Below, in pieces: positions 1-4,840 of a DNA stretch of 11,746 nucleotides. Each line of letters opens with the position of its first letter. Positions within the stretch are counted from its first letter, which is position 1. A program made the position numbers and the translations under genes. A model generated the notes under the pieces. That model made no database searches, was not told the origin of the DNA, and worked only from the letters and a program-made list of their open reading frames with translations. This stretch comes from an uncultured Eubacteriales bacterium (GTDB taxonomy: Bacteria; Bacillota_A; Clostridia; Christensenellales; Aristaeellaceae), in the NCBI GenBank assembly GCA_902803675.1, contig CADCQZ010000162.1, positions 1-11,746 of the forward strand. The letters are read 5' to 3'.

Positions 1-1463
1 AGGAAGCCCTGGAACATGACCTTGTTTTCAAAATGGGCAAGCAGGGCGCCGAGGGATTCGGGGGTCAGCGCATCGCCGATGATGATGCTGGAAGGACGCC
101 CGCCGGCAAAGGCCTTGTTGGGGTTTTCGTCGTCTTTTCCGCAGGCGAATGCCATGATCTGGGCGGCAACGTTGGCGCAGAGCTTCTGCTGGCTGGTCGT
201 GCCCTGAATGTCAACGTCCACGCCGCACTGGCTGCTGCGGAAGCCCACAAACTGCAGCGGAACGATGTCCGTACCCTGATGCAGGAGCTGATAAAAAGAA
301 TGCTGGCCGTTGGTTCCGGGCTCGCCGAAAATAACGGGGCCGGTGACATAATCCACTTTCTCACCGAAACGGTTGACGGATTTGCCGTTGGATTCCATGT
401 CCAGCTGCTGCAGATGGGCCGGGAAACGGCTGAGCGCCTGAGAATAGGGAAGGACGGCGGTTGCCGGGCAGCCGAGGATGTTCCGCTCATATACGCCGAT
501 CAGGGCGTCCAGCATGTCCGGATTCTGCAGGGGGTCGGGATTGGCGGCCAATTGATCTTCCGCGGCGGCACCGTTCAGGAAACGGGCGAACACATCCGGG
601 CCGAAGGCGAGGCTCAGCACAACGCCGCCGACGCAGGAGCAGGAGGAATAACGGCCGCCGATATAATCGTCCATGAAGAAAGCGGCCAGATAATCGCTGC
701 TGTGGGCCAGGGGAGAGGTCTCGCTGGTGACGGCGACCATATGCTTCGCCGGATCCAGACCGGCTTTCTGAAGGGCTTCCTTCACGAAAGACTCGTTGGT
801 CAGCGTTTCCAGGGTGGTGCCGGACTTGCTCACCAGCACGAACAGGGAGCGGCTCAGGTCGATGGACTTGAGCACGGCGGCCGCGTCATCCGGGTCCACG
901 TTGCTGATGAACCGGGCTTCCATTTTGAAGCAGCCGTTCCGGCGCGCCCAGTTTTCCAGGGCCAGATACATGGCCCGGGGCCCCAGGTCGCTGCCGCCGA
1001 TGCCGATCTGCACCACGGTGGTGAATTTCTCGCCCGCGGCGTTGGTGATCTCGCCCCGGTGCACCCTGAGCGCGAACTCGGCCGCCTTGAGCCGCTGCGC
1101 CTCATAGAACTCACGCTTGTCCACGCCGTCCGCCGTGACGGCGCCGCACAGCTGACCGCGGGTCAGCTGATGGAGCACCAGCCGTTTTTCACCGGTATTG
1201 ATCACCTCGCCGCTCAGCAGCGCCTCGTACTTCTCCCTGAGCTGCATCTCGTCCGCCAGGGCCTGCAGCGCCGCGAGCACTTCGTCATCCACCTGTTTGG
1301 CCGCGTAGTGATACTTCAGGCCGGCCGCCATGGGCACCGCGTATTTCGCGACACGAAGCGCGCCGTTCTCCCCCGTCATGGCCCCGGCGAGGTCCACACG
1401 GTCCTTGAGTGCTGCGAGCCTGCCCCAGGCAGGGAAACAATCGGGATTCTTCCAGGTGATCAT
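1..1463 (-). CDS. pgi: Glucose-6-phosphate isomerase (3' end cut by window edge)
   Basis: Cytosolic enzyme that interconverts glucose-6-phosphate and fructose-6-phosphate in glycolysis and gluconeogenesis. 487 codons are visible; the frame stays open to the left edge, so the stop and roughly 35-40 C-terminal residues lie outside, judging from the usual length of this family. Numbering from the start chosen here, the sequence shows NTGEKRLVLHQLTRGQL near residue 90, the sugar-phosphate SIS signature GIGGSDLG at 154-161, the phosphate loop SKSGTT at 212-217, GGRYSSCS around 280, and GEPGTNGQHS with the catalytic Glu381 and ring-opening His388. The catalytic lysine near the C-terminus falls in the missing part. 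The start at 1463 was chosen because AAGGGAG lies 9 nt upstream. An in-frame ATG at 1499 would add 12 residues but has a poor ribosome site. The gene is divergent from the Rho-family gene. The family call is secure from the motifs. Confidence 0.95.
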   Translation of the reverse strand, partial: MITWKNPDCFPAWGRLAALKDRVDLAGAMTGENGALRVAKYAVPMAAGLKYHYAAKQVDDEVLAALQALADEMQLREKYEALLSGEVINTGEKRLVLHQLTRGQLCGAVTADGVDKREFYEAQRLKAAEFALRVHRGEITNAAGEKFTTVVQIGIGGSDLGPRAMYLALENWARRNGCFKMEARFISNVDPDDAAAVLKSIDLSRSLFVLVSKSGTTLETLTNESFVKEALQKAGLDPAKHMVAVTSETSPLAHSSDYLAAFFMDDYIGGRYSSCSCVGGVVLSLAFGPDVFARFLNGAAAEDQLAANPDPLQNPDMLDALIGVYERNILGCPATAVLPYSQALSRFPAHLQQLDMESNGKSVNRFGEKVDYVTGPVIFGEPGTNGQHSFYQLLHQGTDIVPLQFVGFRSSQCGVDVDIQGTTSQQKLCANVAAQIMAFACGKDDENPNKAFAGGRPSSIIIGDALTPESLGALLAHFENKVMFQGF

Positions 1464-1472
1464 CGTTTTCAG

Positions 1473-1479
1473 CTCCCTT
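1473..1479 (-). promoter_or_regulatory. Ribosome binding site deciding the pgi start
   Basis: On the minus strand this reads AAGGGAG, 9 nt before the ATG at 1463. The upstream in-frame ATG at 1499 has only a weak GGAACGG-like sequence before it. The site therefore favours the shorter protein, although it would itself be coding (part of MIKSIDEREL) if the 1499 start were used. Confidence 0.55.
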
Positions 1480-1509
1480 TCATCGATCGATTTGATCATT
1501 TTTTCCGTT

Positions 1510-1534
1510 CCCGGGCGATCGGTAAGGGCCCGGG
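1510..1534 (-). repeat. GC-rich inverted repeat in the pgi leader
   Basis: CCCGGGC at 1510-1516 and GCCCGGG at 1528-1534 form a perfect 7-bp G/C stem with an 11-nt loop. It lies between the predicted pgi transcription start (near 1541) and the candidate ATG at 1499. If the 1463 start is used, the stem lies well upstream of the ribosome site. It could be an mRNA 5' stabiliser or a protein site. No function can be assigned. Confidence 0.4.
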
Positions 1535-1547
1535 TATTCCCGCCTAC

Positions 1548-1577
1548 ATTATACATGATTTTCGGCCGGGCACGCAA
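1548..1577 (-). promoter_or_regulatory. Predicted sigma-A type promoter of pgi
   Basis: The minus strand has a perfect -10 box TATAAT (complement of 1548-1553), an 18-bp spacer and a weak -35 TTGCGT (complement of 1572-1577, 3 of 6 consensus bases). A TG directly abuts the -10, without the extra base of a classical extended -10. Transcription would begin near 1541 and give a leader of about 78 nt to the chosen ATG. The only other obvious promoter in this gap points the opposite way. Confidence 0.65.
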
Positions 1578-1677
1578 CAGGAAAAAGATGGGCGGCGTCC
1601 GGAACAGGTCAGGGCCGGACGCAAAAAAAGCGACATATTTTGTTTAGGAAAAAGCGGAAATATTACCTGAAAAGTGA

Positions 1678-1706
1678 TTGAAAATTACAGATAAATCTGA
1701 TATCAT
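1678..1706 (+). promoter_or_regulatory. Strong sigma-A type promoter of the Rho-family gene
   Basis: TTGAAA at 1678-1683, an exact 17-bp spacer, then TATCAT at 1701-1706; each box matches 5 of 6 consensus bases. The DNA just upstream is AT-rich with A-tracts, suggesting an UP element. The predicted start is near 1713, giving a leader of about 88 nt. The palindrome at 1714-1727 sits right on the initial transcribed region, where a repressor would block initiation or early elongation. Confidence 0.8.
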
Positions 1707-1713
1707 TACTTTA

Positions 1714-1727
1714 CTGATGTACATCAG
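1714..1727. promoter_or_regulatory. Perfect 14-bp palindrome, candidate operator
   Basis: CTGATGTACATCAG is its own reverse complement over all 14 bases. It begins 7 bp after the -10 box of the Rho-family promoter, so it covers about +1 to +14. Contiguous dyads of this type at this position are typical of sites for dimeric helix-turn-helix repressors. A 7-bp stem with no loop is a poor RNA hairpin, so a DNA site is the better reading. No other copy was noticed in the window and the cognate regulator is unknown. Confidence 0.5.
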
Positions 1728-1799
1728 CCTGCTGCCTGTCCGGCGGCATCCTGCAAAAAAGCCGTAAGGTTTTTCGATAGAGCATGGGGGGATTTTGTC

Positions 1800-3500
1800 A
1801 TGGATCGATATACGGAAATGACCGTATCCGAGCTCAGATCTTTGGCGAAAGAACGCGGCATCAAGCTGCCTGTCGGCTCCGTGAAGCAGACGATCATCGA
1901 TCTGCTGAGCGAAGCCGATAAAGCGAGCGCGCCTCCTCCGGAGAAGCCCCGCGTATATAAGGTCGCGTCCATCATCAGCGACGACGAGGAAGAGGATGAC
2001 ACCACTTCCTATTACAGCCGGCCCACACCGGCAGCCGCGCCTGTTCCCAAGGCGAAGGAGCCCGGCACGAGCACCCTGTCCAGCATCTCCAGCAAGGCCC
2101 CGGCTTTCAACCTGGAGGGCAGCCGCACATGGCACAATCCCCGGGCGTATCAGGCTCAGAGCTCCTACTCCGGCAAGAGCGGCTGGGCTTCCTCCCAGAA
2201 GAGCGGATACATCGCCCAGGAAAAAGCGGCTCTTGAAGCTTCCCGCCAGGGGCAGGCTCCCCAGGAGGGAGGTTACGTTTCCGGCAGGAACGTGAGCGCG
2301 GGCAGGTACGAGCGGCCGATGCCCGATGAGGACAGGCCGGCGAGGGAAGCCCCCGAGGCATCCGGCGTGAACGACTATTCCGGGGCCACGGTGGCCGAGC
2401 TCCTGGCCGCCGGCGACTGCGGCGACGGCAGCGGTGTGCTGGAGATCCATCCCGACGGTTTCGGCTTCCTGCGTTCCGGCAGCGGCAAGAACAACCGGGG
2501 CGATGTCTATGTATCCAACGCCCAGATCCGCAGGTTCAGCCTGCGCACCGGGGATGTGATCGAGGGCAAGACCCGGCCCGGCAAGGACGGGGAACGCTAC
2601 TGTGCCCTGTTGTATATCACGAAGATCAACGGGCTGCCCCCGGAGGAGACGGCCCAGCGCCTCTCCTTTGACGACCTGACGCCCGAGTATCCCGCCGAAA
2701 GGATCACGCTGTCCGAGCCGGATCAGTACGATCCCCTGAACACCGCCATCGACCTGATGTGCCCCATCGGCTTCGGCCAGCGCGCGCTGATATCCCTGCC
2801 GGATGACGAACACGCCGAAGCCTTCAGGAAGAACCTGGTCCGGGCAGTCCGGGCGGCCAAACCCCGGGCCGTGGTGAACACGATCCACGTGGGCGGGCGA
2901 CCTGAAGACCTGGCCGAGATCAAGGCCGCAGAAGACGGCGAGAATCTGTACCTTCCCTGCGACACGCTGCCCGAGCAGGTGATCCGCAGCGCGGATATCG
3001 CCCTGGAGAGGGCCCGGCGGGAGGCGGAAAAGCAGGGGGACGCGGTGCTGATCGTGGACTCCATCGACCAGCTGGCGGAAAACTGTGTGCTGCAGGGCCG
3101 CATAGCCTCCAACGGCGACAGCGTGGGCGCTCCCGCCCTGGGGCGCCTGAGACGCTTCTTCGGGTCGGCCAGAAAGCTCAAGGAGGGCGGCAGCCTGACG
3201 GTGATCGGCCTTACGAAGCGGCCGGTCCAGCCGGAGAGCTTCGCGCAGAGCCTGGAGCGCAGCGCCAACGCCGTGATCCGTCTGCACGCTCAGGACACCG
3301 CGTCGATGCCCCTGGGACTGGACATGGAAGCGAGCCGGTGCGAGCGCCGGGAGCAGCTGCTCACCGCGGAGGACCGGCTCCTGGCGGACAAGATCATGCT
3401 CCGGCTCAAAGGAGCGTCCGATCCCGCCGCCGAGCTGACCGGGCTGATGACCGCGTCAAAGGATTTCAACAAAGTGCTGATGAATATCATGGGCATGTGA
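1800..3500 (+). CDS. Rho-family protein with a degenerate ATPase motor domain
   Basis: 566 residues from the ATG at 1800, which has GGGGGGA 7 nt upstream. Domains in order: a SAP-like Rho_N domain (about 1-36, TVSELRSLAKERGIKLP); a Ser/Tyr/Gln/Gly/Pro-rich, probably disordered linker (about 45-200) with an acidic DDEEEDD patch; a cold-shock RNA-binding domain (about 210-280) with VLEIHPDGFGFLR, Phe221 and Phe223, and DVYVSNAQIRRF; then a Rho-like RecA domain to the end. Canonical Rho uses ATP to move along RNA and terminate transcription. Here the Walker A position, reached without a gap from the conserved IGxGQR, reads LPDDEHAE (333-340) in place of APPKAGKT. The catalytic Glu of IDERPEE is Gly366 (VGGRPED). 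The Q-loop GKVLTGG and the R-loop are replaced. Walker B Asp420 (VLIVDS), RRFFGSAR (451-458) and an Arg aligning with the arginine finger (CERREQLL) remain. Length and an open frame argue against a decaying pseudogene. I infer an RNA-binding Rho paralogue without ATPase activity; an rho symbol is withheld for that reason. It has its own promoter and terminator. Confidence 0.88.
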   Translation: MDRYTEMTVSELRSLAKERGIKLPVGSVKQTIIDLLSEADKASAPPPEKPRVYKVASIISDDEEEDDTTSYYSRPTPAAAPVPKAKEPGTSTLSSISSKAPAFNLEGSRTWHNPRAYQAQSSYSGKSGWASSQKSGYIAQEKAALEASRQGQAPQEGGYVSGRNVSAGRYERPMPDEDRPAREAPEASGVNDYSGATVAELLAAGDCGDGSGVLEIHPDGFGFLRSGSGKNNRGDVYVSNAQIRRFSLRTGDVIEGKTRPGKDGERYCALLYITKINGLPPEETAQRLSFDDLTPEYPAERITLSEPDQYDPLNTAIDLMCPIGFGQRALISLPDDEHAEAFRKNLVRAVRAAKPRAVVNTIHVGGRPEDLAEIKAAEDGENLYLPCDTLPEQVIRSADIALERARREAEKQGDAVLIVDSIDQLAENCVLQGRIASNGDSVGAPALGRLRRFFGSARKLKEGGSLTVIGLTKRPVQPESFAQSLERSANAVIRLHAQDTASMPLGLDMEASRCERREQLLTAEDRLLADKIMLRLKGASDPAAELTGLMTASKDFNKVLMNIMGM

Positions 3501-3523
3501 TCCCATTCGACCGATATCCTTTG

Positions 3524-3547
3524 AGGGCTGCCCCGCGGGGCAGCCCT
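3524..3547 (+). terminator. Terminator-like hairpin after the Rho-family gene
   Basis: AGGGCTGCCCC (3524-3534) and GGGGCAGCCCT (3537-3547) are perfectly complementary around a GC centre, giving about 9 to 10 usable base pairs. It lies 24 nt after the TGA. The T-rich tail after it is weak (TCACGTTTCTCTCC), so intrinsic termination may be incomplete. The strong promoter that follows supports a transcript boundary here. Confidence 0.6.
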
Positions 3548-3607
3548 TCACGTTTCTCTCCGGCAGATCCGCCGCGGAAGACTCCCCCCGGGCCCCCGCG
3601 GGGCAGC
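3531..3607 (+). repeat. Direct 14-bp repeat in the intergenic region
   Basis: CCCCGCGGGGCAGC occurs at 3531-3544, inside the terminator hairpin, and again at 3594-3607. The copies are 63 bp apart. The second copy runs on into the 12-bp palindrome GGCAGCGCTGCC (3602-3613). This may be a duplicated and diverged terminator stem, or chance in GC-rich DNA. Confidence 0.45.
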
Positions 3608-3617
3608 GCTGCCGGAG
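3558..3617 (+). repeat. Inverted repeat upstream of the dxr promoter
   Basis: CTCCGGCAG (3558-3566) and CTGCCGGAG (3609-3617) are perfect 9-bp inverted repeats separated by 42 bp of very GC-rich sequence. That spacer contains its own self-complementary CCCCGCGGGG. It lies between the terminator and the -35 box at 3626, so it could be a second, T-tract-less terminator stem in read-through RNA or a regulatory DNA site. No function is assigned. Confidence 0.45.
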
Positions 3618-3625
3618 GGTCGCTA

Positions 3626-3654
3626 TTGACGTTGAAAAGCAATCCTGCTATGCT
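3626..3654 (+). promoter_or_regulatory. Strong sigma-A type promoter of the dxr-rseP-ispG-polC operon
   Basis: TTGACG at 3626-3631 (5 of 6 consensus), an exact 17-bp spacer, and TATGCT at 3649-3654 (4 of 6). The predicted start is near 3661, leaving a leader of about 37 nt before dxr. No other convincing promoter was seen inside the operon, so this one probably drives all four genes. Confidence 0.75.
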
Positions 3655-3659
3655 GTATA

Positions 3660-3691
3660 TGGGGGTATATCCCCCAGTAAAACAACGGGGG
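3660..3691 (+). promoter_or_regulatory. dxr leader hairpin with a possible alternative pairing
   Basis: TGGGGG (3660-3665) pairs with CCCCCA (3671-3676) around the loop TATAT, at the very 5' end of the predicted mRNA. A second G5 run at 3687-3691 ends 6 nt before the dxr ATG and is the only purine-rich candidate for a ribosome site. The single C5 run could pair with either G5. Pairing with the first would leave the ribosome site open; pairing with the second would cover it. The 5' hairpin may equally be a plain mRNA stabiliser. Confidence 0.4.
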
Positions 3692-3697
3692 CTCCGC

Positions 3698-4840
3698 ATG
3701 CATGAGATAGCTGTCCTGGGCTGCACCGGTTCCATCGGGACGCAGGCCCTTTCCATGATCGATCATTATCCGGACCGTTTCAGTCCGGCCGTGCTCACGG
3801 CCCATTCCCAGGCCGATGAGCTCTTCCGCCTGGTGAGAAAATACCGCCCGAAGCTCGCGGTGCTGACCGGGGGCGAAGTCCCTCTGCCCGAGGATGTCAG
3901 GCACATCTGCGACTGGGCCTTCGGGCCCCGGGGCCTCATCGCCGCGGCGGAGTATCCGCTCTGCGATACGGTGCTCGCCGCGGTGGTGGGCATCGCCGGG
4001 ATGGACGCGGTGATCGCCGCGGGCCGGGCGGGCAAAAGAGTGCTCCTGGCCAACAAGGAGAGCCTGGTGGCCGGCGGCGAGATCGTGATGCGCCTGTTCG
4101 GCGGCCTGGCCGGAGGCCGGCTCCTGCCCGTGGACAGCGAGCACAGCGCCATCTTCCAGTCCATGCTGGGCCGGGAAGGGAACGACGTGGATGAGATCCT
4201 CCTGACAGCCTCCGGAGGGCCCTTCAGGACCTGGCCGAAAGAAAAGATGCTCACCGCGACCGTGGAGGAAGCCCTGGGCCATCCCAACTGGAGCATGGGC
4301 GCCAAGATCACCGTGGACAGCGCCACCATGTTCAACAAGGGCCTGGAGATCATCGAGGCCCGCTGGCTGTTTGATATCCCCCAGGAAAGGATCCGGGTGC
4401 TGGTCCATCCCCAGAGCATCGTCCACTCCGCCGTGCGCTACAAGGACGGGGCCGTGATCGCCCAGATGGGCATCCCGGACATGAAACTGCCGATCCTGTT
4501 CGCCATGGCGTATCCCGAGAGGCTCCCCACCTTCACCCCGCCCCTGGACCTGACCGCCCTGGGACAGTTGACCTTCGAGGAGCCGGATAACGACCGCTTC
4601 CCCGCCATCGCCCTGGCCCGCCGGGCCATCAGTGAGGGCGGGACAGCGCCTACAGTGATGAACGCGGCCAACGAGACCGCCGTGGCCGCTTTCCTGGATC
4701 AACGGATCGCCTTCGGACAGATCTACCCCGTGGTGAGAGAAACGATGGAGCGCGTGCCCGCCTGCCCGGTCCGTGACGCGTCGGACATCCATGAAGCGGA
4801 CGAAAAAGCGCGGCGCGCCGCTGCCGAATTGCTGAGATAA
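3698..4840 (+). CDS. dxr: 1-deoxy-D-xylulose-5-phosphate reductoisomerase
   Basis: Cytosolic NADPH-dependent enzyme that turns 1-deoxy-D-xylulose 5-phosphate into 2-C-methyl-D-erythritol 4-phosphate, the first committed step of the MEP isoprenoid pathway and the target of fosmidomycin. At 380 residues it has normal family length. Visible motifs: the nucleotide-binding loop GCTGSIG at 8-14; LLANKESLV at 116-124; PVDSEHSAIFQ, with metal ligands Asp146 and Glu148; ASGGPFR near 170; HPNWSMGAKITVDSATMFNKGLE at 195-217, ending in the third metal ligand Glu217. The ATG at 3698 was chosen because the protein then starts two residues before the first Rossmann strand (EIAVLG). The open frame upstream is non-coding leader and intergenic DNA. 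It is first in the operon, and the stop is 9 nt before rseP with GGAG directly after it. The usual clostridial upstream partners uppS and cdsA are not next to it here. Confidence 0.96.
   Translation: MHEIAVLGCTGSIGTQALSMIDHYPDRFSPAVLTAHSQADELFRLVRKYRPKLAVLTGGEVPLPEDVRHICDWAFGPRGLIAAAEYPLCDTVLAAVVGIAGMDAVIAAGRAGKRVLLANKESLVAGGEIVMRLFGGLAGGRLLPVDSEHSAIFQSMLGREGNDVDEILLTASGGPFRTWPKEKMLTATVEEALGHPNWSMGAKITVDSATMFNKGLEIIEARWLFDIPQERIRVLVHPQSIVHSAVRYKDGAVIAQMGIPDMKLPILFAMAYPERLPTFTPPLDLTALGQLTFEEPDNDRFPAIALARRAISEGGTAPTVMNAANETAVAAFLDQRIAFGQIYPVVRETMERVPACPVRDASDIHEADEKARRAAAELLR

Follow-up and report, generated by a model that had tools for sequence, protein, structure and literature searches.

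What can a Rho protein do once it has lost the residues that drive its motor? The question is raised by a rho-like gene in an 11,746-nucleotide stretch of DNA from a gut bacterium, which was analyzed whole and is called the window here. The gene (1800–3500, forward strand, as are all features below unless stated) encodes 566 amino acids in a frame of 566 codons and is a descendant of Rho without ATPase motifs. The initial annotation took its product for an RNA-binding pseudo-Rho lacking both the ATPase and the channel motifs. Our analysis supports this description: the nearest proteins, P0002 and P0003, and many genomes likewise lack the motifs.

Motifs lost and retained

The window protein was aligned with sequences of solved Rho structures, including that of E. 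coli, and with 176 other rows; P0001, the cluster to which it belongs and from which it differs at two residues, was aligned with 11 and with 119 relatives. In all of these alignments LPDDEHAE falls on the P-loop. The P-loop position reads PDDEHAEA (residues 334–341; 2799–2822), with His338, Ala339 and Glu340 in the columns of Gly183, Lys184 and Thr185, the Walker A Gly-Lys-Thr of Rho. The catalytic Glu211 of E. coli is Gly366 (2895–2897; VGGRPED versus IDERPEE), and the arginine valve is retained as R367. Both lesions had been read off the unaligned sequence, and the alignments confirm both columns. For what E211, R212, K184 and the Q- and R-loops do, we follow PMC8828861. The Q-loop reads QGRIASNGDSVGAPAL in the window protein versus SGKVLTGGVDANAL in Rho. 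In the multiple alignment, which is uncertain in this region, the Q-loop positions are Ala and Asp, and no residue of the window protein falls in the R-loop column. Neither loop appears to retain its Rho residues; the two had been described as replaced, but the Q-loop is modified rather than replaced.

The features proposed to have been kept are indeed present. Asp420 (3057–3059) aligns with E. coli D265, which we take to be the Walker B Asp. By local alignment, R516 (3345–3347) corresponds to R366, presumably the arginine finger, and P0002 and P0003 also have Arg here; the multiple alignment slips by one column at this position and shows Glu, and the local alignment is preferred there. The primary RNA-site positions, whose residue numbers are likewise our assumption, carry F, F, R, Y, E and Y, identical to those of the outgroup Rho that supplied the numbering.

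These positions lie in the Rho_RNA_bind OB domain (residues 211–282; 2430–2645), which is the sole Pfam match of the protein (PF07497, E 5.7e-28); the ATPase family PF00006 was not matched in the Pfam search of the 566 residues. Ahead of it are an N-terminal segment whose start is helical (residues 1–62; 1800–1985) and a linker predicted to be disordered (residues 63–203; 1986–2408; pLDDT mostly below 50). The ATPase domain has a confident Rho fold in a predicted single-chain model. With TIGR00767 the protein scores 211 bits against the curated equivalog cut-off for Rho of 509.45, a cut-off also missed by many relatives with intact motifs.

Gene context and signals

A sigma-70-type promoter-like site (TTGAAA-17-TATCAT, with TG ahead of the second hexamer; 1678–1706) was identified by consensus match only, in a scan of 1400–3800 that gave 2 such sites versus 0.5 expected. 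By eye, a Shine-Dalgarno-like GGGGGGA lies seven bases 5' of the ATG (1786–1792). The long frame and near-consensus promoter had been cited as signs of selection; the frame is as described and the site is promoter-like, but the open frame is weak evidence on its own, because a 547-codon antisense frame over the gene (1644–3287, reverse strand) stays open too, probably as an effect of composition. Also seen by eye, 24 bases 3' of the rho stop, is an inverted repeat of G+C with 10-base arms and a 2-base spacer (3525–3546). It is a possible terminator; it has no real T run behind it and is absent from the sites listed by the motif scan of 1400–3800. Within the window, the neighborhood of the gene is pgi / rho-dxr-rseP-ispG-polC.

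Conservation among the nearest proteins

Among 7998 candidates scored in a protein search there were 2361 matches, of which the best 120 were listed. The list is headed by P0001 (14 member sequences), P0002 (83% identity) and P0003 (49%), all without PF00006, and Rho proteins at 34–49% identity rank below them among these 120; P0087 is one more PF00006-less protein among the matches listed. Compared with P0002, the window protein is most alike in the N-terminal segment (97% identity), the Walker B region (96%) and the RNA-binding domain (94%); the ATPase domain stands at 79% and the P-loop at 35%. The values for P0003, in the order just given, are 51, 58, 64, 37 and 17%. The P-loop position reads LPEGEPGDA in P0002 and IPEEEEDHV in P0003, so the suggestion that a loop of the LPDDEHAE type might be conserved does not hold. 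The low identity at the P-loop means that this loop is free to change, whereas the Walker B region and the face that binds RNA are constrained. The recurrence of the motif loss in P0002, P0003 and many genomes also bears out that it is no sequencing or assembly error.

Repeated motif loss in the family

Sixteen loci of genomes, 14 of them used as entry, led to a family of 308 Clostridia genomes. The PolC encoded in the window is 62–64% identical to its 30 best, nearly full-length matches, and less so to the other full-length matches listed, and it nests inside the PolC tree of the family (FastTree, 77 rows) on a long branch (0.44). Because this tree contains genomes of the family only, membership of the window rests on the nesting.

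In an even draw of 150 family genomes, sorted by their residues at the aligned motif columns, 96 have a Rho with both motifs, 6 have lost only the catalytic Glu, 13 only the P-loop and 22 both, so that 41 of 150 carry a Rho missing one or both. Another 13 have no classifiable Rho, two of these being fragments at contig ends. A larger set, enriched for low scorers, comprises 175 rows (170 genomes, two second copies, the window, P0002 and P0003): 99 rows have both motifs, 13 lack the Glu, 29 the P-loop and 34 both. A classification was possible for 29 of the 30 closest genomes by PolC, and 5 of these have both motifs (1 has lost the Glu, 16 the P-loop and 7 both). The relatives thus do not all carry the normal motifs, the outcome that would have pointed to a fault in this sequence.

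The PolC tree requires at least 14 changes of P-loop state and at least 12 of Glu state; if its starred branches only are counted, the intact label must still change 10 times. With the motif columns removed, a tree of Rho itself gives 12 changes for the P-loop and 10 for the Glu. Compared by eye, the two trees largely agree in their groups, which fits vertical descent. The five-row PolC clade of the window (support 100) contains two rows with both motifs, one without the Glu and two doubly lesioned, the window among them. In the Rho tree the window groups with G153, G020 and G067 (88% support), a placement we do not take at face value given the long branches.

Shared gene neighborhood was considered as proof of orthology and rejected. 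In 186 loci around rho genes of relatives, with flanks that are mostly near 2 kb long and never exceed 8 kb, none of dxr, rseP, ispG and pgi was found near rho; an EF-G gene lies several kb from rho in two loci (L003 and L005), and in two loci there is a PolC-like match that is weak, at 23%. The case for orthology therefore comes from the trees, and rho has moved either in the lineage of the window or in those of its relatives.

The lesions take different forms. A subclade comprising G104 (locus L129), G144 (L130) and the proteins P0121–P0240 keeps Gly-Lys and has replaced the catalytic Glu. Among the 120 listed of 6976 relatives of the G104 Rho (71–99% identical), Val takes the place of the Glu in 118 and Ile in 2, Gly-Lys is present in 120, and Thr or Ser follows in 109. 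In the enriched set, the arginine finger is Lys in 9 of the 13 Glu-less rows and Arg in 87 of the 99 rows with both motifs. Judging from these residues, a Rho of the G104 type may bind ATP without hydrolyzing it. In all 15 genomes of a P-loop-less PolC clade, D-[RK] takes the place of Gly-Lys (e.g. PPKVDRIALL; loci include L002, L004, L005, L007, L016, L091, L139 and L140), and this nucleotide site has possibly been repurposed. The arginine finger is Ile in G002 and G014 of this clade (and in 9 of the 29 rows that lack the P-loop and keep the Glu).

Five loci (L169–L173) encode extremely degenerate Rho proteins of 520–600 amino acids that score only 68–93 bits with TIGR00767. No or only a weak TIGR00767 match was found in eleven genomes (G034, G102, G121, G152, G017, G049, G113, G125, G128, G139 and G154), which may reflect true loss of rho or incomplete assembly. 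An order-level TIGR00767 survey, based on scores only, placed 96 of 151 genomes above the cut-off, at least 9 of the 151 belonging to the same family. Low-scoring Rho-like frames occur elsewhere in the order in G396, G445 and G339, and degenerate Rho may not be confined to the family of the window.

An intact GxxxxGKT elsewhere in the protein had been named in the initial annotation as grounds for rejecting its reading, and this was checked. A literal GxxxxGKT string, GDVIEGKT, is present at residues 251–258 (2550–2573), inside the RNA-binding OB domain. Of 101 rows whose P-loop is intact, 72 have GxxxxGKT at these columns, as do 20 of the 29 and 7 of the 34 P-loop-less rows and 1 of the 13 Glu-less rows; the two outgroup Rho proteins lack it there. 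A displaced P-loop at this site was rejected because the string lies in the OB domain, is common where the real P-loop is intact and is missing from the outgroups, so that it was set aside by position only. Its likeness to Walker A appears to be one of chance or structural resemblance. A second GxxxxGKT string was found in none of the 63 P-loop-less rows, and the loss of the P-loop withstands this check.

Number of Rho copies

Fourteen relatives each have one Rho-sized gene. They contain 28 weaker matches. Pfam was run on 16 of these and identified 15 as subunits of ATP synthase; the remaining one, an 82-residue frame in G009 with no Pfam match, resembles the C-terminus of Rho and is probably the missing end of the contig-cut Rho of that genome. 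A second set of six genomes shares G003 with the first, and in four of the six a single contig of 3.26–3.56 Mb makes up most of the assembly; each has one Rho, beside unchecked weaker matches of at most 38 bits. Among 150 genomes, only G061 and G093 have two matches above 47 bits: both copies are lesioned in G061 (L161 and L162) and both are intact in G093. In the relatives examined, a degenerate Rho is nearly always the sole Rho.

Selection on lesioned and intact Rho

We calculated dN/dS by the Nei-Gojobori method for 25 chosen pairs of relatives, none of which includes the window, leaving out distant pairs with saturated values. It is below 1 in all 25. In the ATPase domain it is 0.013 for G079-G188 (GKA and Val), 0.062, 0.094 and 0.055 among G002, G004 and G005 (DRL), and 0.156 for G106-G232, next to 0.089 and 0.077 in two pairs with both motifs (G095-G068 and G077-G143); it reaches 0.742 in G067-G020 and 0.341 in G094-G135. 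The lesioned G079-G188, G002/G004/G005 and G106-G232 change at non-synonymous sites 0.45 to 2.16 times as fast as PolC; this ratio is 2.3 to 3.5 in G112-G151, G146-G233 and G094-G135, and 4.1 to 7.6 in G028-G072, G225-G226, G008-G010, G127/G224/G223 and G067-G020. Among pairs with both motifs it is 0.60 to 1.21 (G105-G042, G077-G143, G095-G068 and G038-G103) and 2.4 to 3.1 (G024, G069, G137 and G117). Fast change is not specific to lesioned Rho, because such pairs, G024-G069 (3.08) among them, are also fast. Some Rho proteins predicted to be ATPase-dead are under strong purifying selection (dN/dS 0.013–0.094), and others are relaxed or nearly gone. The domain contrast of the window protein, judged by protein identity, seems to resemble that of the intermediate pairs.

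A proposed motorless Rho and its alternatives

We favor, with moderate confidence, the interpretation that the gene is the vertically inherited rho of its lineage, turned into a non-hydrolyzing, RNA-binding pseudoenzyme. Its sequence retains the primary RNA-site positions of the OB fold, the Walker B Asp and the arginine-finger position, has lost the P-loop and catalytic Glu, and is altered in both channel loops. Such a protein should still bind C-rich nascent RNA. Presumably unable to hydrolyze ATP or to translocate, it would work without a motor, occupying rut-like RNA or sitting on the elongating polymerase, and might bias pausing, RNA decay or translation coupling. Its RecA core would be mainly an assembly scaffold, a role that would explain why the core changes faster than the RNA-binding face. 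Within the family this state arose many times, via different routes. More speculatively, and with a good deal less assurance, the family may repeatedly have evolved a motorless Rho that binds nascent RNA and polymerase and acts by ATP-independent allosteric regulation or termination, with the RecA ring as scaffold and with lineages halted at different stages (ATP bound and unhydrolyzed, or unbound).

The main rival is slow decay, in which Rho is dispensable in this lineage and the gene, still translated, is heading for loss. This probably holds for some relatives, and for the window it is a serious if rather unlikely account. The long PolC branch, the fast lesioned pairs (3.5 to 7.6) and the 13 of 150 genomes without a classifiable Rho fit erosion and speak against a pseudoenzyme. 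So do the very degenerate relatives (G020, G067, G094, G115 and G135), the high dN/dS of two pairs among them and the unconstrained P-loop of the window lineage. Against decay stand the intact frame in proteins about 50% identical (the window and P0003) and the identity of 94–97% with P0002 in the RNA-binding and N-terminal parts versus 79% in the ATPase domain. The promoter-like and ribosome-binding-like sequences point the same way, as does dN/dS below 1 in every pair tested, all drawn from relatives.

Other explanations fare worse. The initial annotation suggested mixed hexamers that tune a canonical Rho, for which the predicted Rho fold and an arginine finger that could act in trans on the site of a neighbor would be suitable. 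Against it stand the single Rho-sized gene in the relatives examined, the two genomes with two matches (2 of 150), neither of which pairs a lesioned with an intact copy, and the broad agreement, judged by eye, of the PolC and Rho trees, as for an orthologue; we regard it as improbable. Continued ATP hydrolysis by a motor whose nucleotide site has been rebuilt is more doubtful yet. The retained Walker B Asp and arginine finger would suit it, and the related clade with D-[RK] in 15 of 15 genomes means that nucleotide sites can be remade in this family, but the loop of the window lineage is acidic and unconserved (HAE, PGD, EDH), no rebuilt site is visible, and the changes extend to the channel loops and to the catalytic Glu, which is lost. 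An artefact of assembly, sequencing or binning would be in keeping with the entries of the relatives, which are titled metagenome-assembled genomes, as the window probably is too. Motif loss recurs, however, in P0002, P0003 and independent assemblies, some with contigs above 3 Mb, and in another subgroup Val or Ile replaces the Glu in every one of the 120 listed proteins, which makes this account next to impossible.

Comparison with known systems

According to PMC8828861, the catalytic residues of Rho are highly conserved among divergent Rho factors. Here a whole family repeatedly departs from this conservation; the protein persists as the one Rho detected, and in some lineages selection on it is strong. 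In searches of the open PMC literature, several of which gave mostly off-topic papers, we recognized none on a naturally ATPase-less Rho. The variants of this family look like natural separation-of-function alleles, and they bear on how much of the work of Rho needs the motor and how much needs binding to RNA and polymerase, a matter related to the catch-up versus stand-by or allosteric routes of termination outlined in PMC10085680. A rho annotation alone is an unsafe basis for inferring Rho-dependent termination.

Non-catalytic subunits also occur in RecA-type rings, such as F1 alpha, which leaves ATP turnover to the active beta subunits next to it; for the window protein, no active partner was seen in relatives. 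NF041509 (paralog_Rho2; Rho, short form), a model of a non-standard Rho, is matched at 2.8e-43, but at 148.6 bits versus a cut-off of 628, and the relatives of the window show no canonical Rho alongside. The Rho of Mycobacterium tuberculosis (7oqh) is likewise divergent, with NTPase and helicase activities described as poor in PMC8828861. From the Rho of E. coli, T. maritima and T. thermophilus (structures; TIGR00767) the window protein differs in having no Walker A Gly-Lys-Thr and no catalytic Glu, an altered Q-loop and an empty R-loop column, and with them it shares the predicted fold from about residue 190, the OB-type primary RNA site, the Walker B Asp, the GQR strand and the arginine-finger position.
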